From positions 1 through 41,096 of IMG/VR virus record IMGVR_UViG_3300045976_000128: a DNA stretch of 41,096 nt; one strand, given 5' to 3'. The DNA is from a virus. Position 1 is the stretch's first letter. Every line of letters begins with the position of its first letter. Below are positions 2,716 to 39,168 of this stretch, piece after piece. Position numbers and translations under genes: made by a program. Under the pieces are notes generated by a model. The model was not told the origin of the DNA. It did no database searches and saw only the letters and a program-made list of their open reading frames with translations.

Positions 2716-3657
2716 CTACTCCCAGCCGCCCTCGTCGATGATCTCGTCGATTGCCTTCGACAGGCGGTCGGCCAAGACCTCGCGCTCGTCGTCGGCCCGT
2801 TCTTCGACCTCTTTGACCAGCTGCATATCGGTGTGGCGCTCGCAGGATTCGGCGACCCACTCGCGCAGCAGGGAGGTCGGCACCGCCTCCAACTGCGCGG
2901 ACTCGATGCGGCCTTCTTCCTCCCACCGCCTCGAGCGGGTGTCGGAGGCCTTCGGCGGCGCCGTCTCGATGTCGTGTTCTTCGATCTGATCCTCGGTCAG
3001 CCCGATCCGCTCGGCGGTGAACTTCTCGAGGGCGGCGGGGCGGCCGATCTCGCCGGCAACGAAGGCGAAGACGTCATCGCGCATCGTGTCGTAGATGGAT
3101 TCGCCGCTCTGGTCGTAGTCGCCAAGGTGCAGGAAGACGGTCGGCAGCGGCTCGGCGATGATCCGCTTCGCCATCCGGTAATTCGACGTGACGCCGGGGA
3201 AGCCGCCGGTCCCGGTGACTTTGACGCCGTAGGGCTCGGCCGCCCTCGCCAGCATCGGCACGATGCCCTCCGTCTCGCACCAAAGCTCGATGCGGACGTC
3301 CTGGCCCTCGCGGGTCGGGCGGGAGTAGTAATCGGCCCGGTCGCGCTGACCGTTCCAGAAGTCGAGCATCGAGTCGTAGCCGTAGTCACCGCCAGCCGAA
3401 GTGCCTTTGTCGTCGCGGATCGACCCGAACGGGAGCATCTGCGCCCGGCGGGCTTTCACCATCAGATTGCAGAGGTTGTTGTACGCCTTCTCGGTCTTCG
3501 GGTAGTCGTGGCGGCCGACCATCATGTAGAAGATTTGCCGGGCCGTCAGCGGGAGCTCGTCGCGCTCTTCGACCAACACCATCTTGACCTGCTCGAGCCG
3601 GTCAAGGCTCTCTTGCTTCGGGTTCCAATTCATGTAGCCCTTCGCCCGCTGCCCCAT
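2716..3657 (-). CDS. Spo11/Topo VI subunit A-like Toprim protein (Mini-A candidate)
   Basis: 313 aa; the start ATG overlaps the previous stop (TGATG). The N-terminal region has a winged-helix-like segment with LTARQIFYMM, where Y44 is in the position of the catalytic tyrosine of Spo11 and Topo VI-A (R-x-I-Y/F-Y). This is followed by KARRAQMLPFGSIRDDKG. A Toprim-like domain follows: E128 and E130 (ELWCETEG), TGGFPGVTSN at about 150-159, and D180/D182 in LHLGDYDQSGE, the D-x-D magnesium site. A third segment, QLEAVPTSLLREWV, fits the family's usual distal element. No B (ATPase) subunit is visible in this phage. That matches the published idea of stand-alone Mini-A proteins on mobile elements, as I recall it. 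Likely role: DNA cleavage or topology in replication or recombination. Catalysis is not proven. Confidence 0.75.
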   Translation of the reverse strand: MGQRAKGYMNWNPKQESLDRLEQVKMVLVEERDELPLTARQIFYMMVGRHDYPKTEKAYNNLCNLMVKARRAQMLPFGSIRDDKGTSAGGDYGYDSMLDFWNGQRDRADYYSRPTREGQDVRIELWCETEGIVPMLARAAEPYGVKVTGTGGFPGVTSNYRMAKRIIAEPLPTVFLHLGDYDQSGESIYDTMRDDVFAFVAGEIGRPAALEKFTAERIGLTEDQIEEHDIETAPPKASDTRSRRWEEEGRIESAQLEAVPTSLLREWVAESCERHTDMQLVKEVEERADDEREVLADRLSKAIDEIIDEGGWE

Positions 3658-3947
3658 CAGGAACGCCCCCCTTCGATGCCGGCGGTGACGATCTCGAGCC
3701 GCCGCTTCTCGACGATCAGCTGCACGGGCGCCGGGTCGCCGCCGATGAAGACGACGACCGTCTGCTCGGGCTGCGCCTGGTCGAAGGCCTCTTTGCGGAC
3801 GAAGCCGACCGCGTCGTCGAGAACGGTGACGCTCTCGCGGTACGTGTCGCCGTGGCAGACGAAGGCCTCTTCGCCGCTCAGGCTGACGAGGTACCCGACC
3901 TCGGCGGCCACCCTCTCAGTCCACCGCTTCGGAACTTCCTGTTGCAT
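3657..3947 (-). CDS. Hypothetical protein
   Basis: 96 aa, preceded by the start-associated element at 3952-3961. Mixed alpha/beta composition with a hydrophobic strand (TVVVFIGG). It is coupled by TGATG to the Topo VI-A-like gene downstream, so the two are probably made together. No family recognised. Confidence 0.7.
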   Translation of the reverse strand: MQQEVPKRWTERVAAEVGYLVSLSGEEAFVCHGDTYRESVTVLDDAVGFVRKEAFDQAQPEQTVVVFIGGDPAPVQLIVEKRRLEIVTAGIEGGRS

Positions 3948-3951
3948 CGCT

Positions 3952-3961
3952 GACTCCTCTC
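3952..3961 (-). promoter_or_regulatory. Start-associated RBS element (gene 3657-3947)
   Basis: Minus strand reads AACCGAGAGGAGTCAGCG before ATG. Confidence 0.78.
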
Positions 3962-3979
3962 GGTTAGTTCGGCCGCGCT

Positions 3980-5089
3980 CTACTCGGCGGCGTTGTTCTC
4001 GTCGATCAGCTTCCGCATCGCATCGAGGCGGGCCGTCTGTGACCGTAGGTCATCGACCGGCGCCATCGCGGCCTCGAAGGCCTCGGCGCCGAGCTTCTGT
4101 CGCAGCTGCGTCCGCAGGTCGTTGATCTCGCGCTCGGTGTCCCTGAAGTCCTCGAGCGTGGCGATGGTCCGGTCGAGCGCGTCGTGGTCGTGCTGCGCCT
4201 GGACGATGAGGCGGTTGAACTGGCCGGGGACCATCGCGAGGCGGTTGATCTGCTTGATTTCGTCGTAGATCGCCTCGCAGCGTTTGATCTGCTCTTTGGC
4301 CCGGTCGTCGGTCAGCGCGGGCGTGACCTCGGCGCCGGACGGAGTCGCCTGCGGGATGCGTTTGACGCGCCCCTGGCCGATGTACTGCGCCTTCAGCGCC
4401 TCGACGAGCTCGACCGGCAGCAGCGGCTCGTAGGCGTTGCGCTGCGCCTTGGAGAGGGCGATGGAGCGGACGAAGGGGTTGGGGACCGTCTGGCCGTTCT
4501 CGAGGGTGACGAGGACCGGCTGCACGAACGTCCCGAAGTTGCCGCCGCCGTGGAACTCGTTTTCGGCGTAGACGGTCGCCTGCCAGGCCTCGGCGCCCTT
4601 CTCGTCGCGGACGAGCTCGAACTTCGGCGCGAAGGTCGGGGCGATGCGGATGCGGGTGAAGCCCCGGACGTTGAGGGTCCGCACAACCTCGGCGACGCCT
4701 TTGTAGGAGAGGCCGGTCGTCAACTGGCCGTCCTCGTCGGCGAACGAGTAGACCATCACGTCGAGGGCGCGGCCCTGTATCTCGTCGAGGATTTGAAGCT
4801 CGTCGTGGACGGAGAGGACGCGGTAGACGTCGCGCTCGTTGGCCGGGACGAGCTCGCCGGCACCGGGCCGGAAGTCGTCGGGGTCGAACTTGGCGAGCGG
4901 ATCGGCGTCCGGGTCGAAGTCGGGCGCTTCGGCCGCAGCCTGCGCGGCGTCGACCTTCGCCTTGTCGGGGACCGGCTCGGCGGTGCGCTCGGCGGCGGTC
5001 GCCTCGGTCGCCTCCTCGGCCTTCGCTTTGCTCTTCGCCGTCGACCGGCTCTGCTTCTGGCCGCCTCGTTTCGGTCGCCGCTTAGCCAC
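3980..5089 (-). CDS. Putative phage recombination protein (RecT/Rad52-like annealing candidate)
   Basis: 369 aa with a GTG start after a perfect start-associated element. Residues 1-80 are a basic then acidic disordered leader (KRRPKRGGQKQ, later DFDPDADP). The core at about 85-250 contains LTTGLSYKGVAEVVR, a glycine-rich strand pair and SIALSKAQRNAYEPLLPVEL. That last motif resembles the S-x-A-Q-R-N-A-x-x-x-L-x-P signature I associate with phage proteins annotated as single-strand annealing or recombination proteins. The C-terminal 120 residues are a predicted coiled coil. The neighbouring RecB-type nuclease, Topo VI-A-like protein and RusA support a recombination role. The family assignment rests on motif memory and could be wrong. 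Confidence 0.5.
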   Translation of the reverse strand: MAKRRPKRGGQKQSRSTAKSKAKAEEATEATAAERTAEPVPDKAKVDAAQAAAEAPDFDPDADPLAKFDPDDFRPGAGELVPANERDVYRVLSVHDELQILDEIQGRALDVMVYSFADEDGQLTTGLSYKGVAEVVRTLNVRGFTRIRIAPTFAPKFELVRDEKGAEAWQATVYAENEFHGGGNFGTFVQPVLVTLENGQTVPNPFVRSIALSKAQRNAYEPLLPVELVEALKAQYIGQGRVKRIPQATPSGAEVTPALTDDRAKEQIKRCEAIYDEIKQINRLAMVPGQFNRLIVQAQHDHDALDRTIATLEDFRDTEREINDLRTQLRQKLGAEAFEAAMAPVDDLRSQTARLDAMRKLIDENNAAE

Positions 5090-5276
5090 GCTGACTCCTC
5101 TCGTTGGTCCGTTCGATCCCCAGCACGTCCGCGATCTGCTTCTCCCGGTCCTCCGGCAACGGTTCCTCCTCGCGGAGCCACCGGGACATCGACATCCGCG
5201 AGACGCCGATCTGCCGGGCGAGCCAGGCGCCCGACCGTTCCTGCTCGTCGAGCGCCTTGTGGATGGCTTGGATCAT
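5082..5276 (-). CDS. Helix-turn-helix DNA-binding protein
   Basis: 64 aa from the ATG at 5276; a GTG at 5288 would add four residues, and neither has a strong ribosome-binding site. The segment GAWLARQIGVSRMSMSRWLREEEPLP is a clear XRE-type helix-turn-helix. The upstream in-frame extension to 5369 overlaps the preceding gene and is unlikely to be used. The stop overlaps the start of the next gene by eight bases. As the only obvious HTH regulator in the leftward early operon, it is the best candidate to bind the palindromic operator at 6658-6676. A 7-base match to half of that operator lies at its own start (5288-5294). Regulation is inference. Confidence 0.7.
   Translation of the reverse strand: MIQAIHKALDEQERSGAWLARQIGVSRMSMSRWLREEEPLPEDREKQIADVLGIERTNERSQRG
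5093..5102 (-). promoter_or_regulatory. Start-associated RBS element (gene 3980-5089)
   Basis: Minus strand reads CCAACGAGAGGAGTCAGC before GTG. Confidence 0.78.
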
Positions 5277-5660: not shown

Positions 5661-6016
5661 CGACCGCTCCCTTCCGCCTCTTCGACCGCCGCCGGGTCGA
5701 GCAGCCGCAGATCGGATTCGGCCTCCTCGATGCGTTCGGTCGCGATAGCCATCCGGTCGCCGCCGGTTTCCTCGTTGAGCTTGGCGACGTCCTCGCACAG
5801 GTAGGCCGCTTCGCTGCATTCGCGTTCGCCCTGGCGGACCAGCTTCAGGCCTTCGGCGCCGTACCGCTCGTAGTAGGCCTCGCTGGCGAGCAGCTGCCGC
5901 GCCATCCGAACTTCGTCGGCGTGGGCGGACGGGTTGCCTTCGCTGCCGGTGACGAGCAGCAGCACGACGAGCCCGAGGCCGACGAGGGCGGCGGCGATGC
6001 CGATTGCCCGCCGCAT
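5657..6016 (-). CDS. Membrane-anchored or secreted small protein
   Basis: 119 aa from the ATG at 6016 (TGATG overlap). Residues 3-24 form a hydrophobic segment after two arginines (MRRAIGIAAALVGLGLVVLL), a signal anchor or signal peptide. The remainder is acidic and helical with two cysteines. Placement directly after the first gene of the early operon suggests an early envelope function such as host takeover or superinfection exclusion. That is speculation; no family is recognised. Confidence 0.65.
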   Translation of the reverse strand: MRRAIGIAAALVGLGLVVLLLVTGSEGNPSAHADEVRMARQLLASEAYYERYGAEGLKLVRQGERECSEAAYLCEDVAKLNEETGGDRMAIATERIEEAESDLRLLDPAAVEEAEGSGR

Positions 6017-6618
6017 CACTCGACTCCGTTCGGGACGAAGGGGATGCCCGCCTTCGGGGAGCCCTCGATGTCCTGCTCCCGTATCCAGTCGGAGACGGGG
6101 AGCCACCCGCGCTCGTCGGCGATGACGATGACATCGGGGTTGTATTTCGGCGCGTACTCCTCGACGAGCCGCTGCACCGTGAGTTCGATGCCGTCCGCCG
6201 TCAGCGTGACCGGCTGGTCGATCAGGTGCTCGACGTGTTCGTAGTTGCCGGTCCTCGTCTCGACGATTACGACGCGGGCGGTGCAGAGGTCGGGCTTGCA
6301 GCTGTCGCCGCCGCAGACGACGCAGCCCGGCCCTTCCCAGCCCTGCTCCCTCGGCTTCCTCGGCAGGTTCGCCGCCACTTCGGCCAAGACCGACTTCGCC
6401 GTGTCCTCCTCCTCGACGGCGAGCTCGACCTCCTCGACGGTCAGGTCGTGCCGCACGTCGACTTGTGCGATCCGGTCCCTCATCGCCGTCTCGGCGGCGA
6501 GGATGATGTCGTCGTCGTTCCCCGTCATCGCCTCGACGAACGCCCCCGCTTGCGTGAACGGGACGCCGATCTCGACGGAGAAGAAGACGCGGTCGTCGCG
6601 CTCTTCTACAGATGCCAC
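6016..6618 (-). CDS. First gene of the left early operon, cysteine-containing hypothetical protein
   Basis: 200 aa. The GTG at 6618 is chosen because a perfect start-associated element lies four bases upstream; a longer in-frame reading to 6684 would run over the promoter. A central C-x-x-C-x-x-x-x-C-x-x-x-x-C cluster (CVVCGGDSCKPDLC) suggests a zinc site. The flanking regions are acidic and beta-rich. As the leader gene behind a regulated promoter it is probably among the earliest and most strongly made proteins. Function unknown. Confidence 0.7.
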   Translation of the reverse strand: MASVEERDDRVFFSVEIGVPFTQAGAFVEAMTGNDDDIILAAETAMRDRIAQVDVRHDLTVEEVELAVEEEDTAKSVLAEVAANLPRKPREQGWEGPGCVVCGGDSCKPDLCTARVVIVETRTGNYEHVEHLIDQPVTLTADGIELTVQRLVEEYAPKYNPDVIVIADERGWLPVSDWIREQDIEGSPKAGIPFVPNGVE

Positions 6619-6622
6619 GGTT

Positions 6623-6632
6623 GACTCCTCTC
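6623..6632 (-). promoter_or_regulatory. Start-associated RBS element (gene 6016-6618)
   Basis: Minus strand reads CAACCGAGAGGAGTCAACC before GTG. Confidence 0.78.
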
Positions 6633-6655
6633 GGTTGAACTGCGATTGCCTGGCG

Positions 6656-7438: not shown

Positions 7439-8085
7439 GATGCCCTCCCTCGAGGCTCGGCTTGGTGGCGGGCGCGGTACTGGCGGTGGAAGACGAAGTC
7501 GATCTTGGCGCCGGTCTTCGGCCCGATCTCGCCGTCGACGTGCAGGCCGTAGTCGCGCTGGAAGGCTTCGACCGCCCGCTTGACCCGGCGGCCGAAGCGA
7601 CCGGGCGCCCGGCGCAGGTAGGCCGGGCCGTCACCGTGGCGGATGAAGGCGAGGCGGCGCGTGTAGTGCTTGACGCGCTTGCCCTTCGAGCCCTTCTTCA
7701 GGACGTGGAAGGTCGGGAAGTGGACGAGGCCGTTGTAGTTGAAGTGCCAAGGCTCCGAGAAGGCTTCGCTCTTGACCCAACCGAACCGGGCGCCGTGTTC
7801 GTGAATCCACGACTGGCCCTCGCCAGTCGGCTCGTCGACGCAGACGCCCATCCCGTGAAGAGAGGTTCCGACCTGCGCCGCCAGCGGCCCGCCTTCGAGG
7901 TAGATGCGCCAGCGCGTTTCCTGCATCGCAATCGTGCGATAGCTCGATTCGGGACCGCCCGGAGCGCACCCTGCTTCGGCCGGGCCGCCCGGCGCGTTCC
8001 ATGCCGCCGCCGCTGGCTTGGCGAGGCGACCGCCGGGGATGTCGGCGAGCGCTGAATCGGGGAAGCGACCGTTCGGGTAGGTCAT
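7435..8085 (-). CDS. Endolysin: VanY-like M15 peptidase with peptidoglycan-binding domain
   Basis: 216 aa. The peptidase core has SLHGMGVCVDE, with H77 and D84 as zinc ligands, and EPWHFNY, with E111 as catalytic base and H114 as third ligand, the M15/VanY motif pair. Residues 128-200 (LKKGSKGKRVK, later AVEAFQRDYGLHVDGEIGPKTG) form a PG_binding_1 repeat. The enzyme would cut peptide stems, by D,D-carboxypeptidase or endopeptidase activity, and complements the muramidase next to it. The first 55 residues are Pro/Ala/Gly-rich and probably disordered; I see no export signal. Confidence 0.88.
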   Translation of the reverse strand: MTYPNGRFPDSALADIPGGRLAKPAAAAWNAPGGPAEAGCAPGGPESSYRTIAMQETRWRIYLEGGPLAAQVGTSLHGMGVCVDEPTGEGQSWIHEHGARFGWVKSEAFSEPWHFNYNGLVHFPTFHVLKKGSKGKRVKHYTRRLAFIRHGDGPAYLRRAPGRFGRRVKRAVEAFQRDYGLHVDGEIGPKTGAKIDFVFHRQYRARHQAEPRGRAS

Positions 8086-8710: not shown

Positions 8711-9054
8711 GGCCTCCATCGGTCGCGCTGCACCATAGGGAGATACCCGGTCGTGTCGCGGAAGTGCTTCTCCTCGGAGGTCAGATTGCATTGCCCTCCG
8801 CTGCCGCTCGACGGCGGCGGCTCCGGCGTCTTGGAGGCGACGCTGACGATGTAGCGCCAGGTGGCCGCGAAGCCAGCCGCGCTCGAGCCGGTGAAGGTCA
8901 GCAGGGCGGTCGCGACGGTCGGGTTGGCGCGGCTCGGATCGACGACGCCCGCGATCAGCACGACGAAGAAGGACAGCATCCCGAAGACCGCCATCAGCGC
9001 GAAGAGCGCCGCGACGAGCTCGCCCATCGCCGGCCACCGCCGGTATCGCTTCAT
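8707..9054 (-). CDS. Two-span membrane protein, holin candidate
   Basis: 115 aa with GGGAGGCGGGGGG just upstream. Two hydrophobic helices, about 12-37 (ELVAALFALMAVFGMLSFFV) and 46-70 (TVATALLTFTGSSAAGFAATW), are followed by a soluble Pro/Ser tail. Being first in the lysis block with a strong ribosome-binding site, it may be the main holin. The proteins at 6768-6953 and 8555-8710 are alternatives. Confidence 0.6.
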   Translation of the reverse strand: MKRYRRWPAMGELVAALFALMAVFGMLSFFVVLIAGVVDPSRANPTVATALLTFTGSSAAGFAATWRYIVSVASKTPEPPPSSGSGGQCNLTSEEKHFRDTTGYLPMVQRDRWRP

Positions 9055-17041: not shown

Positions 17042-17919
17042 TCAGTTCTCCCGGCCGTGCAGCTGCGCGAGCAGGTACTTCGTGCGCTGCCAGGCCTCGT
17101 TACCCGACGATTCGGAGCTAGGCGACGTCCCCGGCGTGTTGGTCCCCGTGTCGTCGCGCATCGCTCCCTCTTCTGCCCGCCTTAGCTCGCGGGCTGCGGC
17201 TCGGACCTCTCTGAATGGAGTTCGGAAGAGGACGTCCCGCCGGGACCAGCCGAGCGCTCGGCCGAGGGAGACGACAAGGCGGGCTCGGAAGCGCTCCGCT
17301 CGCTCGGCTCGTCCGGTGCCTTCGTCTTCGTCTTCGGCGCCCGGTGAATCCCGAAGACCTCGAGGAGTTTCCCCAGCTGCCCTCCGTCGATTGCCTTCAG
17401 CTGGTCGCGCAAGACCTCGCCTGCGGCGGCGGCCACTTCGACCAGCTGTTCGAGGGTCGCGTCGTGCAGCAGCTTCCGCCGCTGCTCGGCGAGGGCGCCG
17501 TCCTTGCCGTAGAGCTCGCGGCCGTCCGCGTCGGCCTGCTCGAGCTCGGAGTTGGGCGTGATGAGCAGGGCGAGCAGGTCGATCAGCGACTCGCGGGCGA
17601 CCGTGTAGACCTTCGGCAGGGCGAAGGCGACCTGCTCCTCGAGGCCGGGCGGCTCTGGCACGACGAGCTCGTTGCCCGACGCCTCCCATGCCGCCTCGGA
17701 GACGTTCTTCGCCTGCTGCGGGAACCGCGCTTCGGCAGCTGCTCGCGGCATCCGCTGAGCGTGGTCGGTTTCGTACTGGCGGGTGAACTCGGCGAGGTCT
17801 TGCAGCAGCGTCGGCGTCTGCTCGGTTATCTCGCTGATGATCCCCAACGCCTCCGCAGCCTTGAAGCCGTTGAGCTTCGAGATCGTCGCGGGTGCGTCTC
17901 CGATCTTGACATCGGCCAT
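17042..17919 (-). CDS. Tail assembly chaperone, frameshifted long product (gpGT-like)
   Basis: The reading frame ending at 17042 has no plausible start of its own for most of its length but overlaps the end of the chaperone gene in the -1 frame, directly upstream of the tape measure, as in lambda G/GT. It contains LGRALGWSRRDVLFRTPFREVRAAARELRR, which looks like a real folded segment. In the overlap the minus strand reads CTG-GGG-AAA-CTC (GGGGAAA at 17374-17368), a sub-optimal slip site, because re-pairing of the second tRNA mispairs at the first position. Slippage there would give 292 aa. The alternative is an independent 39-aa gene starting at the ATG at 17161, which has GAGGGAG upstream. 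Confidence 0.55.
17182..17919 (-). CDS. Tail assembly chaperone (gpG-like)
   Basis: 245 aa, ATG at 17919 after a perfect start-associated element. It lies between the major tail protein and the tape measure, the standard chaperone site. Residues 1-190 are helical (KAAEALGIISEITEQTPTLLQDLAEF, later EQVAFALPKVYTVARESLIDLLALLI). The last 50 are Ser/Pro/Glu-rich and may be disordered, with the -1 frame open throughout. It would bind the tape measure during tail assembly. Confidence 0.78.
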   Translation of the reverse strand: MADVKIGDAPATISKLNGFKAAEALGIISEITEQTPTLLQDLAEFTRQYETDHAQRMPRAAAEARFPQQAKNVSEAAWEASGNELVVPEPPGLEEQVAFALPKVYTVARESLIDLLALLITPNSELEQADADGRELYGKDGALAEQRRKLLHDATLEQLVEVAAAAGEVLRDQLKAIDGGQLGKLLEVFGIHRAPKTKTKAPDEPSERSASEPALSSPSAERSAGPGGTSSSELHSERSEPQPAS

Positions 17920-17924
17920 TCTGT

Positions 17925-17934
17925 GACTCCTCTC
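17925..17934 (-). promoter_or_regulatory. Start-associated RBS element (tail chaperone)
   Basis: Minus strand reads TCACAGAGAGGAGTCACAGA before ATG. The part GAGAGGAGTCACA matches the terminator-loop copy over 13 bases. Confidence 0.78.
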
Positions 17935-17945
17935 TGTGACGCCGC

Positions 17946-18953
17946 CTACGAGGTGTAGGCGGCGTCTTCGTTGGTGACTTCGCAGGTGTAGAGCGGTTTG
18001 CCGGTTTTCAGCCGGAGCTCCCCTGCGAGGCTGATCTCGGTCGGCCCGCCGTCCGGTGCCGGCGCCACCGCATCGAACGGCGTCCACTTCACCGCTTCCG
18101 CGTTGAATTTGAAGGCGTCGGTCAGCGGCGAGGCCTTCGCCAGGTTGAACGAGTACGAGCCGTAGGTGGGCTGCGTCTTGATCGGCTTTTTGCCGGCGGC
18201 CGGACTCGCTTCGCCGTAGACGAGCTTGTTGTACTGCGCCATCCCGTCGCTGTCGGCGTAGATCGTCACGCCGAGGGTGACTTTCGCCAGCCCGCGAGCG
18301 AAGTCGTAGACGGTGACATCGTCGCCGTAGACGGGCGTCAGCCCCTCGTCGAAGGTGATGCTGAACTGCGAGTGGCCGCGCATCACGACCGAGTCGATGG
18401 TGAACGTCCCCGATCCCTCGGTGTAGATGAAGACCGGGTTGCTCGAGATCGCTTTCGCCGGGTCGGACGAGAAGATTTCGCCCGCGTCCAGCGACAGCAC
18501 GTTCGGCGTGACCCGGACGGCCTTGTTGGCGGTGGACCCCTCGATGACGAGGCTGCCGATCCGGCAGTCGTTGAACTTCTGGCGCTGGATTTGCGTCTGC
18601 CCGACGCGCTTCCACCACGTAGACCAGAAGAACGAGTTGCCCGGTTCGGTTTTGTGGACTTTCGGCGTGGTCCCCGTCACCGTCTCGGCGCCGTGGAAGA
18701 GCCAGAGCAGGTAGGCGAGCGCGTCCGACTGCGCCTCGATGCCCGGCGAGCCAGCGCCGCCGATGCTGTTGATCCAGTCCGTCGACGAGCCGAACTTCGA
18801 CCCGTCCGACCAGTTCTCGGAGCCGTCATCGCGGTTGACGTTGAGATCGCCCGCGACCTGAAGGAACTTCTTCGTCGCTTCGGCCGCCGGGCTGCCCTTC
18901 GCCGTCTGCTTGGCGCCCCACAGGCTGTAGATGTTCGTCTCGACCATCGACAT
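17946..18953 (-). CDS. Major tail (tube) protein
   Basis: 335 aa from the first ATG, supported by GGAGGA eight bases upstream; an ATG two codons later is an alternative. It contains IYSLWGAKQTAKGSPA near the N-terminus, DALAYLLWLFHG, TWWKRVGQTQIQRQKFNDCRIGSLVIEG, and a repeated beta pattern with QFSITFDEGLTP, all typical of siphovirus tube proteins. It lies between a tail-terminator-type module and the chaperones. It is expected to be one of the most abundant virion proteins. Confidence 0.85.
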   Translation of the reverse strand: MSMVETNIYSLWGAKQTAKGSPAAEATKKFLQVAGDLNVNRDDGSENWSDGSKFGSSTDWINSIGGAGSPGIEAQSDALAYLLWLFHGAETVTGTTPKVHKTEPGNSFFWSTWWKRVGQTQIQRQKFNDCRIGSLVIEGSTANKAVRVTPNVLSLDAGEIFSSDPAKAISSNPVFIYTEGSGTFTIDSVVMRGHSQFSITFDEGLTPVYGDDVTVYDFARGLAKVTLGVTIYADSDGMAQYNKLVYGEASPAAGKKPIKTQPTYGSYSFNLAKASPLTDAFKFNAEAVKWTPFDAVAPAPDGGPTEISLAGELRLKTGKPLYTCEVTNEDAAYTS

Positions 18954-21703: not shown

Positions 21704-22144
21704 TCAGACGAACGAGTCGTGCCAAGGCGGCAGGTCGGCCGGGCGGCGGCGGTCGCCGGTCGCGGTCGTCAGCCGGAGCAGCCGCGAGTAGGTCAACTCC
21801 CGCATCGCGGCCGGGCCGACGATGGGCGCCTGCCCTTCGGTTTCGTAGTCCGGTCCCTTCGTCTTGTTGAACTGCGGGCGCCGGAAGAAGGCCGGACCCA
21901 TCTCGACGCGGTACTCGGCCTGAGCGCAGGTCGCCCGGACGAGCGCAGCTGCGTCGTCGTCTTCCAGTTCGGCGGGGATGAACTTCAGGCCCGTCGCCAT
22001 ATCGACCGGGATCGGCCCGACGACGAGGTCGATGTCGCGCTCGGCCTCGAGCAGGCGCGATTCGATGGTCGGATCGTCGAGCGCCAGGCGGTCGGCGATG
22101 AAGTCCTTGAAGTCCTGCACGGATGCGTAGGTCAGTTCTGCCAC
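21704..22144 (-). CDS. Head-tail adaptor (gp6-like)
   Basis: 146 aa from a GTG at 22144; a TTG at 22150 would add two residues, and neither has a visible ribosome-binding site, unusual for this phage. ASVQDFKDFIADRLALDDPTIESRLLEAERDIDLVVG is the helical start typical of gp6/adaptor proteins. MRELTYSRLLRLTT and an end PPWHDSF follow. It comes right after the capsid gene cluster and the terminator hairpin, so its level may depend on read-through or a separate start. Confidence 0.75.
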   Translation of the reverse strand: MAELTYASVQDFKDFIADRLALDDPTIESRLLEAERDIDLVVGPIPVDMATGLKFIPAELEDDDAAALVRATCAQAEYRVEMGPAFFRRPQFNKTKGPDYETEGQAPIVGPAAMRELTYSRLLRLTTATGDRRRPADLPPWHDSFV

Positions 22145-22197
22145 GGTCAAGAAGGTAGACCGAGCGGCGGTCGCTCAGGCGTGTCCAGACGCAAAAG

Positions 22198-22239
22198 CGG
22201 GGCGGCTGCCGAGAGGAGTCACAATCAGCAGCCGCCCCG
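22198..22239 (-). terminator. Strong hairpin terminator with an anti-RBS loop
   Basis: CGGGGCGGCTGC and GCAGCCGCCCCG form a perfect 12-bp stem. On the minus strand the stem is followed by C-TTTT, so leftward transcripts leaving the capsid region would end here. The 18-base loop reads TGATTGTGACTCCTCTCG on that strand, the exact reverse complement of the phage start-associated element (13 bases of CGAGAGGAGTCAC). A second small hairpin of C and G runs lies just upstream in the transcript (22245-22258). Confidence 0.75.
22211..22220 (+). promoter_or_regulatory. Inverted copy of the start-associated element
   Basis: GAGAGGAGTC on the plus strand, with flanks CC and ACAAT, inside the terminator loop. 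No start codon or open frame follows on the plus strand, so it is not a working ribosome-binding site there. Confidence 0.8.
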
Positions 22240-22263
22240 TTGTCTCCCCCAGGGGGGAAGTTG

Positions 22264-22488
22264 TTAGCCGGCTTCGGCGCCGACCCGCTGGTCGACTTCC
22301 TCGATCTGCGCGACCGAGGAGGGGTCGGGCTTGTCGGGCGAGTCCTTGTAGGTCACGCCCGGCTTGCCGTCGACGCCCTGAGCGCCGTCTGCCGCGCCGG
22401 AGACGTTCTCGATGGGAAGCCCCTTATCCGTCAGGGTGCCTCCGTCCGAGGACGAGCTCCGGCTCCGGCTCGATTTCTTCTTAGCCAT
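22264..22488 (-). CDS. Small disordered protein after the capsid gene
   Basis: 74 aa. Basic Lys/Ser/Arg N-terminus (MAKKKSSRSRSSSS), then Asp/Pro/Gly-rich, without a predicted hydrophobic core. It lies between the major capsid gene and the terminator, so it is probably co-expressed at high level. It could be a capsid accessory or decoration peptide; that is inference from position only. Confidence 0.65.
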   Translation of the reverse strand: MAKKKSSRSRSSSSDGGTLTDKGLPIENVSGAADGAQGVDGKPGVTYKDSPDKPDPSSVAQIEEVDQRVGAEAG

Positions 22489-22550: not shown

Positions 22551-23495
22551 TTAGGAGCCGTTGACGATGGCCGCGAAGAGGCCGTCGACCTGATGGACGT
22601 TGAAGCCGACCCGCATCGTCCACTTCACCGCGATCTTGTCCTGCTGCCAGGTCCGGTGATCGGTGCCGCCGACGTTGACCGTGGCCTGGTCGGCGAGCTT
22701 GACCCGGATGTCCTGCCGGAGGATGTACTTCGCGTGGGTGAAGTCGCCGACGATGGCGACGACCTTCGGCGTCCCTTCGCCTGCGCCGACTTTCCCGGCG
22801 GGGAACCCGTCGAGGTTGGTCGTGTAGGCGTGGGGGAGCGTGTAGGTCTCGTTGGCCTCTTTCGAGTAGCCGTCCGTCAGAGCCGGTTCGGTTTTCTCGG
22901 TTTCGCGCCGAGCGTCGCGCAGCTGCTGACGGAGGTCGGTCGCGGCGATGATGCCGTTGGGCGTCCCGCCGTTGCCTTCGACGTAGCCCATCGCCGCCGA
23001 CACCGCCGCCGGCCAGGCGTCGCCCGCCGTGCCGAGCTCGATGCGTTTGGTGGCGATGCCCGCGTTGAACGAGTTGTCGAACTGCGTCGTCAGCGGGACG
23101 CCGGCACCGAGGCCGAGGGCGTGGGCGTCGATCAGCTGCGCGAAGGCTGACTCGACCTGCGAGTTGACGAGCGCCTGCGGGTCCTCGGCGGCGTCTTCGA
23201 GCTCCTCTTCCGTGTAGAGGATCGTCGTGCCGATCTTCTTCACGTTGACCTCGATCTCGCCGAACTCGGCGCCGGTCGCGGGGATGTCGGCACCTTCGCC
23301 GACGAAGCTCGCGGTCGGTCGCCCGACGAGGCGGGTGTACTTGCGCTTGCGGGTGTTGGTCCGCTCGACGCTGACGAATCGACCGAGGGCCGACTCCTGC
23401 GCTACGGCGTCGACGAGAACCGCGCCGTACTCGGGCCGGATCAGGTAGCCGCCGGCCGCGTCGGGCGTACCCATGATGGGGATGTAGTTGGACAT
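22551..23495 (-). CDS. Major capsid protein (HK97 fold)
   Basis: 314 aa, ATG preceded by AGGAGAG. SALGRFVSVERTNTRKRKYTRLVGRPTASFVGEGADIPATGAEFGEIEVNVKKIGTTILYTEEELEDA follows the HK97-fold pattern (N-arm, E-loop, spine helix entry), with AQLIDAHALGLGAG and C-terminal DHRTWQQDKIAVKWTMRVGFNV. No N-terminal delta domain is fused; a separate scaffold lies upstream. Confidence 0.92.
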   Translation of the reverse strand: MSNYIPIMGTPDAAGGYLIRPEYGAVLVDAVAQESALGRFVSVERTNTRKRKYTRLVGRPTASFVGEGADIPATGAEFGEIEVNVKKIGTTILYTEEELEDAAEDPQALVNSQVESAFAQLIDAHALGLGAGVPLTTQFDNSFNAGIATKRIELGTAGDAWPAAVSAAMGYVEGNGGTPNGIIAATDLRQQLRDARRETEKTEPALTDGYSKEANETYTLPHAYTTNLDGFPAGKVGAGEGTPKVVAIVGDFTHAKYILRQDIRVKLADQATVNVGGTDHRTWQQDKIAVKWTMRVGFNVHQVDGLFAAIVNGS

Positions 23496-24817: not shown

Positions 24818-25684
24818 TCAGTCGTCGTCGTCGTCGGGAGCGCCGCCGAGGCTGCCCTCGGCCTGGCGACCTCGGATCGCTCCGAGCAGGGCGCCGCCGA
24901 GTCCCTTGCGGACCTCGGCCTTGTCGACGGTGCCGTCCGCGCCGATGCCGGGGAGGCCGCCGCCGGGAGTGCCGCCGCCCGGAGGCGAGCCGCCCGCCGG
25001 GGTGCCGAAGCCCGGAGCGCCGCCGCCGCCGGAGCCGCCGCCGTCCTCGCGCTGCCCGAAGAGCTTCGGCTTCTGCGCCGCGAGCTCTTTGACCAGCTGC
25101 TCGGCCGTCTGCGCGTCCTCGGCGTCGTCGAGGTTGACCAGCGCGACGACGACATCGTCGTCGATGGCGCCCGCCTTGCTCGCCGCCTCGCGGACCCACG
25201 CGCCGCGCTCGAGGCGCTTCGCTTTCTCTTCCGCTTCGGCCGCCTTCTGCTCGGCTTTTTTGGCCGCCTGCTGCGCTTTCTCGAGCTCCGAGGCGTCCTT
25301 GCCTTCGAGCTCTTCGACCTTCCGCTGCGCCTCGGCCGCGTCGCGTTCGGCTTTCCTGCGACGGCGTTCCGCCTCGCCGAGCTTGTTCTCTGCCGGCGGG
25401 TCGGTCTTCGGTTTGCCGCCGCCATCACCGCCGTCGCCGCCGCCGGAGGGTGCGCCCCCGCCGTCGCCGCCGGACCCGCCTCCGTCGCCGCCGCCCGATC
25501 CGCCGCCGTCGCCCGGCTCAGGGGCGCCGCCCATGATCGGGCGCATCGTGGCGATGCGGGTGAAGGTGGCCGCCGATTCCTTGGCGGCGATGGTGACGAA
25601 GGTCGCCCGACCTCGAAGCTCTCGGACCTTCCAGACGATTAGGTAGCGAAGTCGCAGCGCTCGCTCGCGCAGTTGCTTCCGCAT
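24818..25684 (-). CDS. Capsid scaffolding protein
   Basis: 288 aa. The ATG at 25684 is supported by AAGAGAGGAGTTCGGG directly upstream, so the Arg-rich N-terminal 50 residues belong to the protein. Next comes a glycine/aspartate-rich linker (52-95), a long coiled coil at about 100-165 (EAERRRRKAERDAAEAQRK and following), a compact region with AIDDDVVVALVNLDD, a second Gly/Pro-rich stretch, and an acidic end DDDDD. Coiled coil plus acidic disorder between portal and capsid genes is typical of GP20-type scaffolds. Confidence 0.82.
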   Translation of the reverse strand: MRKQLRERALRLRYLIVWKVRELRGRATFVTIAAKESAATFTRIATMRPIMGGAPEPGDGGGSGGGDGGGSGGDGGGAPSGGGDGGDGGGKPKTDPPAENKLGEAERRRRKAERDAAEAQRKVEELEGKDASELEKAQQAAKKAEQKAAEAEEKAKRLERGAWVREAASKAGAIDDDVVVALVNLDDAEDAQTAEQLVKELAAQKPKLFGQREDGGGSGGGGAPGFGTPAGGSPPGGGTPGGGLPGIGADGTVDKAEVRKGLGGALLGAIRGRQAEGSLGGAPDDDDD

Positions 25685-25689
25685 CCCGA

Positions 25690-25698
25690 ACTCCTCTC
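25690..25698 (-). promoter_or_regulatory. Start-associated RBS element (scaffold)
   Basis: Minus strand reads GCAAGAGAGGAGTTCGGG before ATG; a divergent copy. Confidence 0.65.
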
Positions 25699-25703
25699 TT
25701 GCT

Positions 25704-31863: not shown

Positions 31864-32241
31864 CTACGCCTCGACGAAGATGCCGGACTCGGCGATCAGC
31901 TGGCCGATCCGCGTCGGCGACGCGCCGTTCTCGGCCTCGTCCCTGATCCTCGCGAGCAGCTGCTTCTCGGCCGACGAGCCGACCGGCGTGACGCCGCCCG
32001 AGCCTTTGACCTGATCGTGCGCCAGGCGGAAGCGCTCGAGGCCCGCGATCATCCCGACCGCGACGTTGCACCATTGCGTCGCCACGTTGGCGGTGCTGGC
32101 GGCGAGCTCGGCTGACTGCGACGGATCAGCTGGCGCGGCTTCGCCCATCGCCTCGACGTTCGACGCGGCCTCGGCGATGGCGGCCCGCAGCTGCTCTTCG
32201 ACCTGATCGGGCGTCCGGCCCGTTGACCCCTCGGTACTCAC
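31864..32241 (-). CDS. Hypothetical helical protein
   Basis: 125 aa, GTG start in a GTGA overlap with the terminase small subunit and preceded by a perfect start-associated element. Alanine-rich and helical (LRAAIAEAASNVEAMGEAAPA), ending with SPTRIGQLIAESGIFVEA. No family recognised. Confidence 0.65.
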   Translation of the reverse strand: MSTEGSTGRTPDQVEEQLRAAIAEAASNVEAMGEAAPADPSQSAELAASTANVATQWCNVAVGMIAGLERFRLAHDQVKGSGGVTPVGSSAEKQLLARIRDEAENGASPTRIGQLIAESGIFVEA

Positions 32242-32756
32242 GGTGACTCCTCTCCGTTGTCGACGCCGGCCAACCTATCGTCAAGCTCGTCGTCGGACAT
32301 CTGTGCGGCGCGTTCCTTCTCCGCGCCCACGTCGATCTTGCCGGAGAGGTCGGCGGCAATACGCGGCCCGAACTCGCGGCGGCGCAGTCGCTCGAGCAGC
32401 CAGGTAATCGCCTTCGTGTCGCCCGACTCGGCCCGCTGTTTCAGCAGCGCGAGGTTCACGACGACCGCTTGCCCGTCCGCAGCCTCCATCTGCTCTAGAA
32501 ACTCGACGTAGACCCGCTCGCCCGCCGGCACGTCCTCGAGCGTCTGCCCTTCTTCGTAGTCGGGCCGATGCTCTCTCCCTCGCGCCGTCCAGTTGTGCAG
32601 GGTCGCGGGGCTGATCCCTGCCGAGGCGGCGCAGTCGCGGAGAGGGGCGCCGAGGCGACGAGCGCGGACGCAGGCCTCTCCGACCGTGACCTCCTCCTCT
32701 TTGCCGTCGAGGCCTTCGACCTTGATCTTGCGCTCGATGTCGCGGGGTCGAGCCAT
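32238..32756 (-). CDS. Terminase small subunit
   Basis: 172 aa. RLGAPLRDCAASAGISPATLHNWTARGREHRP is a helix-turn-helix DNA-binding domain. It is followed by YVEFLEQMEAADGQAVVVNLALLKQRAESGDTKAITWLLERLRRREFGPR, the usual TerS central helix pattern with A-x-x-G-D-x-x-A-x-x-W-x-L-E-R. It would recognise the packaging site. About 3 kb of tiny genes separate it from the large subunit, which is unusual. Confidence 0.82.
   Translation of the reverse strand: MARPRDIERKIKVEGLDGKEEEVTVGEACVRARRLGAPLRDCAASAGISPATLHNWTARGREHRPDYEEGQTLEDVPAGERVYVEFLEQMEAADGQAVVVNLALLKQRAESGDTKAITWLLERLRRREFGPRIAADLSGKIDVGAEKERAAQMSDDELDDRLAGVDNGEESP
32245..32254 (-). promoter_or_regulatory. Start-associated RBS element (gene 31864-32241)
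   Basis: Minus strand reads AACGGAGAGGAGTCACC before GTG. It lies inside the end of the terminase small subunit gene. Confidence 0.75.
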
Positions 32757-34060: not shown

Positions 34061-34531
34061 CTACTGCTCGTCGACCTTCGGCCGCTCGGCCTCGGCCTGC
34101 TGAGCGATGATCGCCTCGTTCACCGTGATCGCGTAGTTGAGGCGCTGCTCGGCCTCGACGTATGCCTTGGCGAAGCGCTCGGCGTTCTCGTCGGTCGCGT
34201 GGGCGAGGTTCTGCTCGGCGACGTTCATCGAGCGGTAGGCCTGCGCCAGGTCGAGCGCCGCCTGTTTCGGCGACGGCATCGGGTCGGGAAGCTCCGGCCC
34301 GATCTGCGCCTCGAGGACGGTCGGCTCGATGGGATGCTCGGCCGAGACGGCGACGGCGCCGGCCAGCTTGACGGCGTCCATGCCCGCCTCGGCGTCGCCC
34401 TCGTTCTCGTAGCCCTCGCCGCTGTCGGCGAGGATGTTGCCGTTGTGCGGGCTGACGTAGCGCCAGCGCCACTCCCCGGCCTCGTCCTTGTAGGTCGACC
34501 AGCCGGGTTGCAGCTGCGTCTCGTCGGTCAC
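34061..34531 (-). CDS. DUF1508/YegP-like protein
   Basis: 156 aa, GTG start after a perfect start-associated element. Residues 8-55, GWSTYKDEAGEWRWRYVSPHNGNILADSGEGYENEGDAEAGMDAVK, closely follow the DUF1508 (YegP) pattern: F-x-x-Y-x-D-x-x-G-x-[WY]-R-W-R-x-x-x-x-N-G-x-I-x-A-x-S-G-E-G-Y. A helical C-terminal half follows. The biochemical role of this domain is not known. Confidence 0.8.
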   Translation of the reverse strand: MTDETQLQPGWSTYKDEAGEWRWRYVSPHNGNILADSGEGYENEGDAEAGMDAVKLAGAVAVSAEHPIEPTVLEAQIGPELPDPMPSPKQAALDLAQAYRSMNVAEQNLAHATDENAERFAKAYVEAEQRLNYAITVNEAIIAQQAEAERPKVDEQ

Positions 34532-34689
34532 TTTGACTCCTCTCGTTTGGGTTGATCGGCGTCGCCCGGCTTGACGCAGCCGGGGCAGACGGCCTTCTGT
34601 TGTCCGTCCTCGACGATGGGGACGAAGTTGTCGGGCAGGTCGCCGCCGCAGCGCGGGCAGCGCGGCGAGCTCTGCGGCGGGAAGCGCAT
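34528..34689 (-). CDS. 53-aa zinc-ribbon protein
   Basis: CPRCGGDLPDN and CPGCVKPGD provide two C-x-x-C knuckles 21 residues apart, a classic zinc ribbon. The start ATG overlaps the previous stop (TGATG) and the stop overlaps the next GTG (GTGA). Its last codons (KREESK) are encoded by the start-associated element of the following gene. Confidence 0.72.
   Translation of the reverse strand: MRFPPQSSPRCPRCGGDLPDNFVPIVEDGQQKAVCPGCVKPGDADQPKREESK
34535..34544 (-). promoter_or_regulatory. Start-associated RBS element (gene 34061-34531)
   Basis: Minus strand reads CCAAACGAGAGGAGTCAAA before GTG, inside the coding end of the zinc-ribbon gene. Confidence 0.75.
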
Positions 34690-34934
34690 CAGTTCTGAGA
34701 CGGGTCGCCCGGCGGCCGGAGAACCTGCGCGGCCTCCTCGGCGCTCGGCGTGACGATCCGCTTCTCGGTGAATTCGTCCGCGACCCGCTTCGCTGCCTCA
34801 TCGGTGCAGGGGAAGACCAGCACTTCGGTCGGGGTGTGGACGACGAGGTTGCGAATCGGGTCGCCGCCCTCGGGGTTGGGGATCGTGTCGACCGCCATCT
34901 TGAAGGCGGTATACGTGACCTGTTTCTGCGCCAT
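34689..34934 (-). CDS. Hypothetical protein
   Basis: 81 aa, ATG after a perfect start-associated element. Alternating strands and one helix (VTYTAFKMAVDTIPN, NLVVHTPTEVLVFPCTDEAAKRVADEF). It is the first gene after the replication module, downstream of the hairpin at 34957-34988. Unknown function. Confidence 0.68.
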   Translation of the reverse strand: MAQKQVTYTAFKMAVDTIPNPEGGDPIRNLVVHTPTEVLVFPCTDEAAKRVADEFTEKRIVTPSAEEAAQVLRPPGDPSQN

Positions 34935-34937
34935 CGT

Positions 34938-34947
34938 GACTCCTCTC
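34938..34947 (-). promoter_or_regulatory. Start-associated RBS element (gene 34689-34934)
   Basis: Minus strand reads AAATCGAGAGGAGTCACG before ATG. CGAGAGGAGTCAC is identical over 13 bases to the sequence complementary to the terminator loop. Confidence 0.8.
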
Positions 34948-34956
34948 GATTTAGTT

Positions 34957-35670: not shown

Positions 35671-36470
35671 CCTTCGGCTGCCTCCCGCATAGCTTCGATG
35701 TTGCCCTGGACGCGATCCGCCTTGCCGCCCCGGCCGCCGCCGCTGCGGCCTTTCTGCTGCTGCGCCTCGAGGAAGATGCGGTCGAACTGCTCGCGGAGTT
35801 TCGGCACCGCCAAGATGTTCTTGCGCCAGAAGTCGTGCTGGTCGACCCACCGAATCGCCCGCTCGATGAGCTCAGGCGGCCGGCCGTCGATGTCGATCAG
35901 CCGGCGCATTTCGTCCCGCCAGGTCTTCGTCACCGTGTACTTCGGCGACGAGCGGTTGCCCTCCGGGTCGGTCCTGGCATTCGAGAGATCGGCCATCAGC
36001 TGACACAACCGCTCGACCTCCGGTCGGGTGATTTCTTTCCCCTTTTCTTTAGACGTAGTGCCTTTCTTTTGTGGGTCTAGATCGTTGACCGACCCGCCAG
36101 GCACGGCGTCGTCATCCATCGGTCTAGGTGCTTGACCATCGCTCGGTCTACCTTCTCGACTGTCTAGATTCTTGACTTCAAGGCGGTAGAGGAACGAGCG
36201 GCCCTGCTTCCGGCGCTGCACGTAGCCGCGCTCGAGGGCGGCGCCGACACCATCGTTGACCGACTGCCGCGACAGCCCCGTCCGCTCTTCAAGCTGCGTG
36301 AAGCTGAGCTCGTCCTCGTCCTTGTGCCAGCCGAAGGTGGCCCGGATGATCGCGAGCGTCACCTTCAACTCGGCCAGCGTGTCGATCTCGACGACGAGCA
36401 GGTCGAAGAAGGCGTTGGGCGCCTGCGTGTAGTTCGGTGCGTCGAAGGCGCGCTGAGTAGATAGACCCAT
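35667..36470 (-). CDS. Replication initiator (phage O/DnaD-like)
   Basis: 267 aa. Residues 13-100 (NYTQAPNAFFDLLVVEIDTLAELKVTLAIIRATFGWHKDEDELSFTQLEERTGLSRQSVNDGVGAALERGYVQRRKQG) match the N-terminal winged-helix domain of phage replication protein O. Residues 98-150 are a polar linker whose DNA contains the iteron array. The C-terminal part (YTVTKTWRDEMRRLID, AIRWVDQHDFWRKNILAVPKLREQFDRI) resembles DnaD-like replication domains. It would bind the iterons and recruit host helicase, as in lambda. Confidence 0.8.
   Translation of the reverse strand: MGLSTQRAFDAPNYTQAPNAFFDLLVVEIDTLAELKVTLAIIRATFGWHKDEDELSFTQLEERTGLSRQSVNDGVGAALERGYVQRRKQGRSFLYRLEVKNLDSREGRPSDGQAPRPMDDDAVPGGSVNDLDPQKKGTTSKEKGKEITRPEVERLCQLMADLSNARTDPEGNRSSPKYTVTKTWRDEMRRLIDIDGRPPELIERAIRWVDQHDFWRKNILAVPKLREQFDRIFLEAQQQKGRSGGGRGGKADRVQGNIEAMREAAEG
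36030..36177. other. Candidate replication origin: iterons and AT-rich tract
   Basis: Four direct 16-base repeats at 36075-36090, 36122-36137, 36146-36161 and 36162-36177 share GTCTAGATKCTTGACY (GTCTA invariant). A polypyrimidine tract rich in T and poor in G/C lies immediately beside them (36030-36072), in a genome with very few such stretches. An inverted TAGAC occurs at 36050-36054. The arrangement inside an O-like initiator gene copies the lambda ori layout. Confidence 0.7.
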
Positions 36471-38097: not shown

Positions 38098-38405
38098 CGC
38101 CGCTGCTGCGCCTCGAGGTCGACGCCCTCGCAGACGAACAGGCGTACCGGCGCCGCGTCGAAGCAGAGCCGCCACTTTTTGAGGACATACTCGACGGTGC
38201 GAGGTTCCAACGCTTCGACCGGGATCGGGCCGTCCTCGGGGACGTACCTGATCTCCGGCGGCGGGCTGAGGAACCTGATGACGCGGTCGCGGATGGCGAT
38301 GACCTCCCCGTCGCGAGGTCCGCCGACCAGCTGCGCCGCCGCCTGCGACGGCAGCGGGCGGCCCGCCGGTCCCCACTCGACCAGCAGGCGATCCCAGCCG
38401 GTCAC
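38094..38405 (-). CDS. Small phage-type hypothetical (GGPRDGE motif)
   Basis: 103 aa, GTG start (GTGA overlap). AQLVGGPRDGEVIAI is a short motif seen in many small actinophage proteins, followed by strands and a C-terminal YVLKKWRLCFD. Function unknown. Confidence 0.66.
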   Translation of the reverse strand: MTGWDRLLVEWGPAGRPLPSQAAAQLVGGPRDGEVIAIRDRVIRFLSPPPEIRYVPEDGPIPVEALEPRTVEYVLKKWRLCFDAAPVRLFVCEGVDLEAQQRR

Positions 38406-38794
38406 GACTCCGGGGCGACGAGTCCGAGGAAGTCGTCGAGGTCGAGCGTCCCGGCCCGCAGTTCGCCGATGGCCGTCTCGAGGGAGGCCAGGCGGTCGAG
38501 CGCTGCGCGGTCTTGGAATTTCCGCGCCACGACGCCGACCTGTAGCGCGTGGCAGGCGGCGCCGAAGGCGGTCAACGTCGCGTTGCCCTCGACGCGGCGC
38601 TGACAGATGGAGGCGAAGGCCTTCATCGCCTCGAGGTCGATCTCCTCCTCCTCGCACCACTCCTCCGGGCCGATGCCGGAGTCGAGGACGAGGCGCAGGG
38701 CGCGGCCGAGGACCGGGTCGGCCATGACCTCCTCGAAGAGCTCGTCGTCGGTCTTCTTCGGCTGCTTCTGCTCGTCGGGGGTCGGGTCGGCCAT
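38402..38794 (-). CDS. Hypothetical protein
   Basis: 130 aa (TGATG start overlap plus an upstream start-associated element). Acidic N-terminus; helices with KAFASICQRRVEGNATLTAFGAACHALQVGVVARKF; ends in LDLDDFLGLVAPES. No family recognised. Confidence 0.66.
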   Translation of the reverse strand: MADPTPDEQKQPKKTDDELFEEVMADPVLGRALRLVLDSGIGPEEWCEEEEIDLEAMKAFASICQRRVEGNATLTAFGAACHALQVGVVARKFQDRAALDRLASLETAIGELRAGTLDLDDFLGLVAPES

Positions 38795-39168
38795 CAGGAC
38801 TCCTCTCCCGGCGCTGCGACGAGTTCGTCGAGCCGATCCGGCGTCATCATCGCCGCGAGGCGGATGCCGGCGGCGAGGCCCATCGTGAACGTGCCGCCCA
38901 CCGTCGACCGGATGACCACGCCCGCCGCCGTATCGGCGTCGAACGGAGCGCCCGCGTCGAGCAGGGCTTTCTTCGCCTCCTCGACGTTGGCCGGGTCGGT
39001 CCCGTACTTGATCTGCGCGTCGACGATCTGATCGGTTCGGGTCCACAGCGCCGTCTCGCAGAGGCCGAGGAAGGGCGCCGTATGCGTCTCGGCCCAATCG
39101 AGGGCTTCGTCGATTTCCGGGCCGTGCAGCTTGCCGTCATCGGGGACATCGCGCTTCGCGTCGCTCAT
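38794..39168 (-). CDS. Hypothetical protein
   Basis: 124 aa (ATGA start overlap). It contains DEALDWAETHTAPFLGLCETALWTRTD and a glycine/alanine-rich segment, VGGTFTMGLAAGIRLAAMM, which is hydrophobic but short for a membrane helix. Unknown function. Confidence 0.66.
   Translation of the reverse strand: MSDAKRDVPDDGKLHGPEIDEALDWAETHTAPFLGLCETALWTRTDQIVDAQIKYGTDPANVEEAKKALLDAGAPFDADTAAGVVIRSTVGGTFTMGLAAGIRLAAMMTPDRLDELVAAPGEES
38798..38807 (-). promoter_or_regulatory. Start-associated RBS element (gene 38402-38794)
   Basis: Minus strand reads CGGGAGAGGAGTCCTG before ATG. It lies inside the end of the previous gene. Confidence 0.72.

Follow-up and report, generated by a model that had tools for sequence, protein, structure and literature searches.

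A hairpin behind a phage capsid gene whose loop is antisense to the phage's own start-associated sequence: a candidate regulatory RNA with a parallel in cluster K mycobacteriophages

Background

Within the window analyzed here (the whole of a 41-kb viral contig, 41,096 nucleotides long and 68% G+C), the loop of a strong hairpin behind the capsid gene contains GTGACTCCTCTCG, an exact reverse complement over all 13 bases of CGAGAGGAGTCAC, the start-associated sequence (SAS) that this phage places in front of many of its genes. A tentative reading, somewhat short of probable, is that the loop of a late RNA base-pairs with SAS leaders and dampens their translation. An arrangement of the same design, built upon a different SAS, occurs in cluster K1 mycobacteriophages.

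The SAS was named by Pope et al. in cluster K, where conservation beyond the Shine-Dalgarno (SD) core is its hallmark, where the sites occupy the non-structural right arm of the genome, and where a single oppositely oriented SAS, not obviously at a gene start, is present in each of four phages (PMC3203893). Whether the partner of the SAS is an RNA or a protein was left open in that study, a phage-encoded RNA being among the possibilities listed (PMC3203893), and an RNA-seq study of the cluster K phage Adephagia calls the role of the SAS ill-defined (PMC11373665).

Results and discussion

The hairpin and its genomic setting

The recognizable genes of the window all point leftward and, along the direction of transcription, run from a replication-type gene through the small and large terminase, portal, scaffold and capsid genes to the neck and tail genes, the tape measure, lysis and further genes. 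The hairpin (Table 1) sits in the intergenic space that separates a 74-aa ORF, itself following the capsid gene, from a weakly matched head-tail adaptor gene whose leader lacks an SAS. The tblastn matches of the capsid protein are major capsid proteins of Microbacterium and Arthrobacter phages. Searches of phage records, of viral contigs and of prokaryote genomes found no close kin of the phage: megablast and tblastn searches against phages returned capsid, portal and terminase relatives at only about 25-30% identity, and a scan of viral contigs with the capsid, terminase, portal, tape-measure and topoisomerase proteins and with two hairpin patterns gave nothing usable. Rejected as relatives were the viral contig L053, which has only a tape-measure domain in common and in which the SAS is absent, and contigs bearing the RBS motif, each of which holds one or two chance copies. 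Between its genes, L053 has long hairpins that recur with similar arms (CCTCCCCCATTTACGC...), at 7622-7658, 7674-7710 and 9014-9052.

Table 1. Coordinates of the hairpin, its neighboring genes and the SAS sites in the window
Feature	Position	Strand	Remarks
Hairpin	22198-22239	minus	perfect 12-bp stem, arms 22198-22209 / 22228-22239; extendable to 15 pairs
Hairpin loop	22210-22227	minus	18 nt, RNA 5'-UGAUUGUGACUCCUCUCG-3'
Anti-SAS GTGACTCCTCTCG in loop	22210-22222	minus	exact complement of CGAGAGGAGTCAC
UUUU tail	22193-22196	minus	one base past stem; weak terminator candidate
Small hairpin CUUCCCCCCUGGGGGAG	22244-22260	minus	upstream, in the same gap; from RNA fold
74-aa ORF	22264-22488	minus	upstream of hairpin; no family match
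Major capsid protein gene	22551-23495	minus	phrog_10 major head protein, E 8.7e-26
Head-tail adaptor gene	21704-22150	minus	downstream of hairpin; phrog_541, E 5e-4 (weak)
SAS, exact	34936-34948	minus	before ORF 34689-34934
SAS, 1 mismatch	34533-34545	minus	before ORF 34061-34531
SAS, 1 mismatch	32243-32255	minus	before ORF 31864-32241
SAS, 1 mismatch	17923-17935	minus	before ORF 17182-17919 (late cluster)
SAS, 1 mismatch	6621-6633	minus	before ORF 6016-6618
SAS, 1 mismatch	5091-5103	minus	before ORF 3980-5089
SAS, 1 mismatch	3950-3962	minus	before ORF 3657-3947
SAS-like, 3 mismatches	38796-38808	minus	before ORF 38402-38794
SAS-like, 3 mismatches	2693-2705	minus	before ORF 2503-2691
SAS-like, 3 mismatches	369-381	minus	before ORF 73-366
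SAS-like, 4 mismatches	25687-25699	minus	before scaffold gene 24818-25684
SAS-like, 4 mismatches	at 6032	minus	before a further gene

The perfect 12-bp stem and 18-base loop described in an earlier note on this DNA were recovered at 22198-22239. The minus-strand RNA forms 15 pairs when folded, because UGA/UCG closes too, and an 81-nt minus-strand piece containing the hairpin has an MFE of -44.5 kcal/mol (z = -5.2). Hairpins of at least 12 bp with a loop of at most 18 are over-represented in the window (3 observed versus 0.32 expected in first-order Markov simulations). On the 3' side of the stem come one C, UUUU (22196-22193) and then GCG, that is, a short, interrupted U-tract. With this stem and tail an intrinsic terminator is possible; the earlier note's description of the hairpin as a transcript end is nonetheless unsupported as stated, the U-tract being weak. 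The terminator scan considers loops of 3-8 nt only, and the hairpin with its 18-nt loop is absent from its list.

It is conceivable, though on the whole unlikely, that the hairpin is simply an ordinary terminator or mRNA-stabilizing element after the capsid gene, with a loop that happens to derive from the SAS by inversion or recombination and is itself functionless. Its post-capsid position is typical of a partial terminator, the UUUU follows, and other strong hairpins are present, such as the one at 17938-17966 at the end of another late gene; yet the match comprises the whole SAS core without flanking homology, there being neither the A-rich box that lies upstream of genuine SAS sites nor a start codon, which argues against a displaced copy.

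Two further features of the region may be recorded. The hairpin at 17938-17966, likewise a perfect 12-bp stem but with a loop of 5, lies at the end of gene 17946-18953 and directly adjoins the SAS of ORF 17182-17919. A 23-bp repeat of 91% identity (AGAAGGTAGACCGAGCG...) occurs at 22150-22172 and 36134-36156 on opposite strands, one copy being immediately before the head-tail adaptor gene.

The start-associated sequence of the window phage

The SAS precedes seven genes at one mismatch or fewer, ten at three or fewer and, loosely, about 10-12. The 'at least eleven' genes credited with the element by the earlier note are therefore found only in its loose form, the strict count being seven, and a 13-base match, which had been attributed to several genes, is exact before one (at 34948) and before no others. 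Apart from the copy in the hairpin, every site is on the coding strand, with a start codon only a few nucleotides away; as in an SAS system, the result is a 13-bp motif at the RBS position of many genes with conservation extending beyond the SD. Judged by sequence, pairing with the actinobacterial 16S tail, taken here to be CUCCUUUCU, is possible for the SAS part GAGAGGAG; the part TCA(C) falls outside this pairing, yet is kept. Function is mostly unassigned for the SAS genes, and the view that early or replication genes are targeted is unsupported as stated, inasmuch as at least one gene with a strong SAS (ORF 17182-17919) sits in the late cluster.

Uniqueness of the antisense copy

The copy in the hairpin is the sole antisense (plus-strand) SAS in the window at two mismatches or fewer, the seven other copies being on the minus strand at gene starts; the complementarity of the loop to the phage's own SAS, as originally noted, is thus both exact and unique within the window. 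For the strand of the hairpin copy, first-order Markov simulations put the expected number of exact 13-mers at 0.0025, and the probability of the 13-mer and a strong hairpin loop together is far below that of either alone. A blind scan of hairpin loops for sequences antisense to start-associated 9-mers, which covered 12 phage sequences, returned the window hairpin as the only match to a dominant motif, its two other matches being weak k-mers that resemble coding sequence. Of the control actinophages Koji, Eileen, TinyDot and SoJo, none has a strong SAS, at most a single weak 9-mer being present, and none has an antisense loop.

Pure sequence coincidence is very improbable. It gains something from the fact that the feature was chosen post hoc from the whole window, but it has to contend with the low expectation for the 13-mer on the strand (0.0025), which is lower still within a strong hairpin loop, and with a blind scan that picks out this same hairpin. 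That the antisense loop is non-random is borne out both by the Markov statistics and by the unrelated K1 parallel described below.

Calculated pairing of the loop with leaders

An RNA-RNA interaction prediction, which the earlier note had proposed as a check, gives strong and specific loop-SAS pairing: the calculated duplex energies, which disregard loop geometry and target structure, average -23.7 kcal/mol for the loop with SAS leaders versus -9.6 with other leaders, a difference of about 14 kcal/mol. When 300 shuffled loops were paired with the SAS leaders, the energies were -10.9 +/- 1.9 and none of the 300 did as well as the real loop. The actinobacterial 16S anti-SD tail reaches -12.8, so that the loop could, on paper, outcompete it.

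These energies also bear on whether the pyrimidine-rich, 16S-tail-like loop CUCCUCUC is a general anti-SD mimic, which would bind any strong SD, of host or phage, instead of singling out the SAS genes, or would protect the RNA. Such a mimic would act as the CCUCCUCCC-loop sRNAs do. CcsR1 (RF02791) and the 'cuckoo' RNAs resemble the window hairpin in having a loop that exposes an anti-SD motif, but they are bacterial and their CCUCCUCCC motif is generic; against the CcsR1 model the window hairpin scores 16.8 bits versus a cut-off of 65.3, a faint, sub-threshold resemblance at chance level. The loops of cluster K phages outside K1, which drift yet remain pyrimidine-rich (CUUCCCUUCC, CUCCUUCCC), would fit a mimic as well. 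This explanation is nevertheless distinctly unlikely, given that the complementarity of the window loop extends to the part of the SAS outside the SD (GTGA opposite TCAC) and that leaders without an SAS pair with it so weakly.

A parallel in cluster K mycobacteriophages

In cluster K1 the SAS is GGGATAGGAGCCC, which differs from that of the window. Adephagia and Anaya each have a single antisense SAS on the transcribed strand, in the loop of a long hairpin whose inner stem, GCGCGG/CCGCGC, encloses the loop CCTCCTATCC. Because this inner stem is only 6 bp long, the blind hairpin scan missed it; a scan proceeding from antisense copies found it. The hairpin belongs to a conserved noncoding RNA element of about 300 nt, which in Adephagia falls between genes 92 and 93 (JF704105 58572-58859, equivalent to 38573-38860 of L027); according to the Adephagia RNA-seq study, late transcription begins between these two genes (PMC11373665). 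The element starts with an invariant, promoter-like TAGACT, and has a match in 164 cluster K records, in many of which it is unannotated. Its alignment supports a multi-stem RNA fold with two-sided changes at 14 pairs, and for the hairpin alone such changes occur in 6 of 14 pairs. In five K1 phages the loop is invariant at 13 of 13 positions, as against 194 of 314 other columns; a functionless 13-mer would be expected to drift, whereas the K1 loop is constrained.

No Rfam family matches the cluster K RNA above threshold, no mention of it was found in the accessible part of PMC11373665, and no prior description of the K1 RNA was found in the literature searched (mostly without subscription papers, the ZoeJ study included among the latter). 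The window hairpin scores 0 bits, with filters off, against R1, a covariance model of the cluster K RNA built here. The two RNAs are thus not homologous, and their common design is either convergent or coincidental. They differ in setting as well as in SAS sequence: the cluster K hairpin is part of a long, leader-type RNA near the right end of the genome, whereas the window hairpin is confined to a short gap behind the capsid gene. What they share is a 13-bp SAS before many genes (the SAS/ESAS system of cluster K) and a single antisense copy in a hairpin loop.

This shared feature weighs upon a further explanation, namely that a DNA- or RNA-binding protein recognizes the SAS and that the hairpin copy is its decoy or operator. 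Pope et al. left the choice between an RNA and a protein partner open (PMC3203893), but such a protein would have no need of an antisense copy in the loop of a transcribed RNA, and yet both lineages have one; this explanation is accordingly quite improbable.

Limits of the parallel

Elsewhere in cluster K the SAS is kept without the antisense loop, namely in K2, in K3 and in Yuna (the phages concerned being TM4, ZoeJ, Pixie and Yuna). In TM4 and ZoeJ only the 5' part of the K RNA remains; Pixie (K3) has 16 SAS sites, and the RNA copies of Keshu and TBond007 (also K3) lack an anti-SAS loop; Yuna (L037 / L052) retains about 17 SAS sites with the anti-SAS loop deleted, and so constitutes a natural loop-minus comparison. 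Unicorn and Amgine have the canonical SAS before about 14-16 genes and loops that have drifted to CUCCCUUCC and CUUCCCUUCC; these still prefer SAS leaders, 8 of 300 shuffled loops being as good. Boilgate has a diverged version of the RNA without an anti-SAS loop, and no SAS on the stretch examined. A search for strict loop-SAS covariation within cluster K gave a negative result; what occurs there is the converse of the refuting case named in the earlier note, the loop being altered or lost while the SAS persists. Since there are K phages with the SAS and without the loop, SAS use does not require the loop, which is at best an accessory regulator retained in K1. Microbacterium cluster EF is a similar case, in that AnnaSerena has an SAS-type extended RBS (PMC7302621) while no antisense SAS was found in its genome.

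Relation to known antisense systems

The earlier note regarded an anti-RBS loop as being without precedent, but the c4 RNA of phages P1 and P7 is one: its complementary sequences, which are probably located in loops, anneal to the region around the RBS in a phage mRNA and block translation (PMC12197685). In the window, too, a loop is complementary to phage RBSs, the pairing here being calculated; c4, however, has one target (ant) and serves immunity control, whereas the window loop fits about 7-12 dispersed genes. No Rfam family, c4 included, matches the window at the gathering threshold. The best reading, by analogy, is that the window hairpin works like c4, while by sequence it is not of the c4 family. 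What is new relative to c4 is that many genes are addressed through a common start motif.

Proposed mechanism

The preferred reading, that of a loop pairing with SAS leaders, can be set out as follows. A leftward late transcript of the capsid region would fold into a stable hairpin whose loop exposes the antisense SAS; as this RNA accumulates, the loop would pair in trans with the SAS that each target leader contains; and this pairing would compete with the ribosome, thereby lowering translation of the whole set of SAS genes. The hairpin may double as a partial terminator or as a stabilizer of the mRNA 3' end. We infer late synthesis and abundance of this RNA, its pairing in trans, and repression as the outcome. 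Indirect support for a late RNA acting on SAS genes comes by analogy from the K1 element, located at the reported start of late transcription, and by likeness to Adephagia it is plausible that early genes would be shut off late. The SAS-bearing ORF 17182-17919 belongs to the late cluster and is located downstream of the hairpin on the same strand, which makes feedback within late expression equally possible. The loopless K2, K3 and Yuna genomes, the partial loop matches elsewhere and the late SAS genes of the window together suggest that this is not a universal switch.

A broader proposal, advanced with rather more reserve, is that phages marking their genes with an SAS have evolved, at least twice independently, a late hairpin RNA with an anti-SAS loop, that is, a translational switch through which one RNA addresses many genes.

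Conclusions

The role of the SAS has been open since 2011, and the hairpin loop provides a concrete candidate for an RNA partner in two unrelated phage lineages. The idea is testable, inasmuch as one of these lineages includes Adephagia, a laboratory phage that is readily handled in Mycobacterium smegmatis mc2 155 and for which RNA-seq has been published. Should the idea hold, a single hairpin loop would carry a regulon-wide antisense switch.
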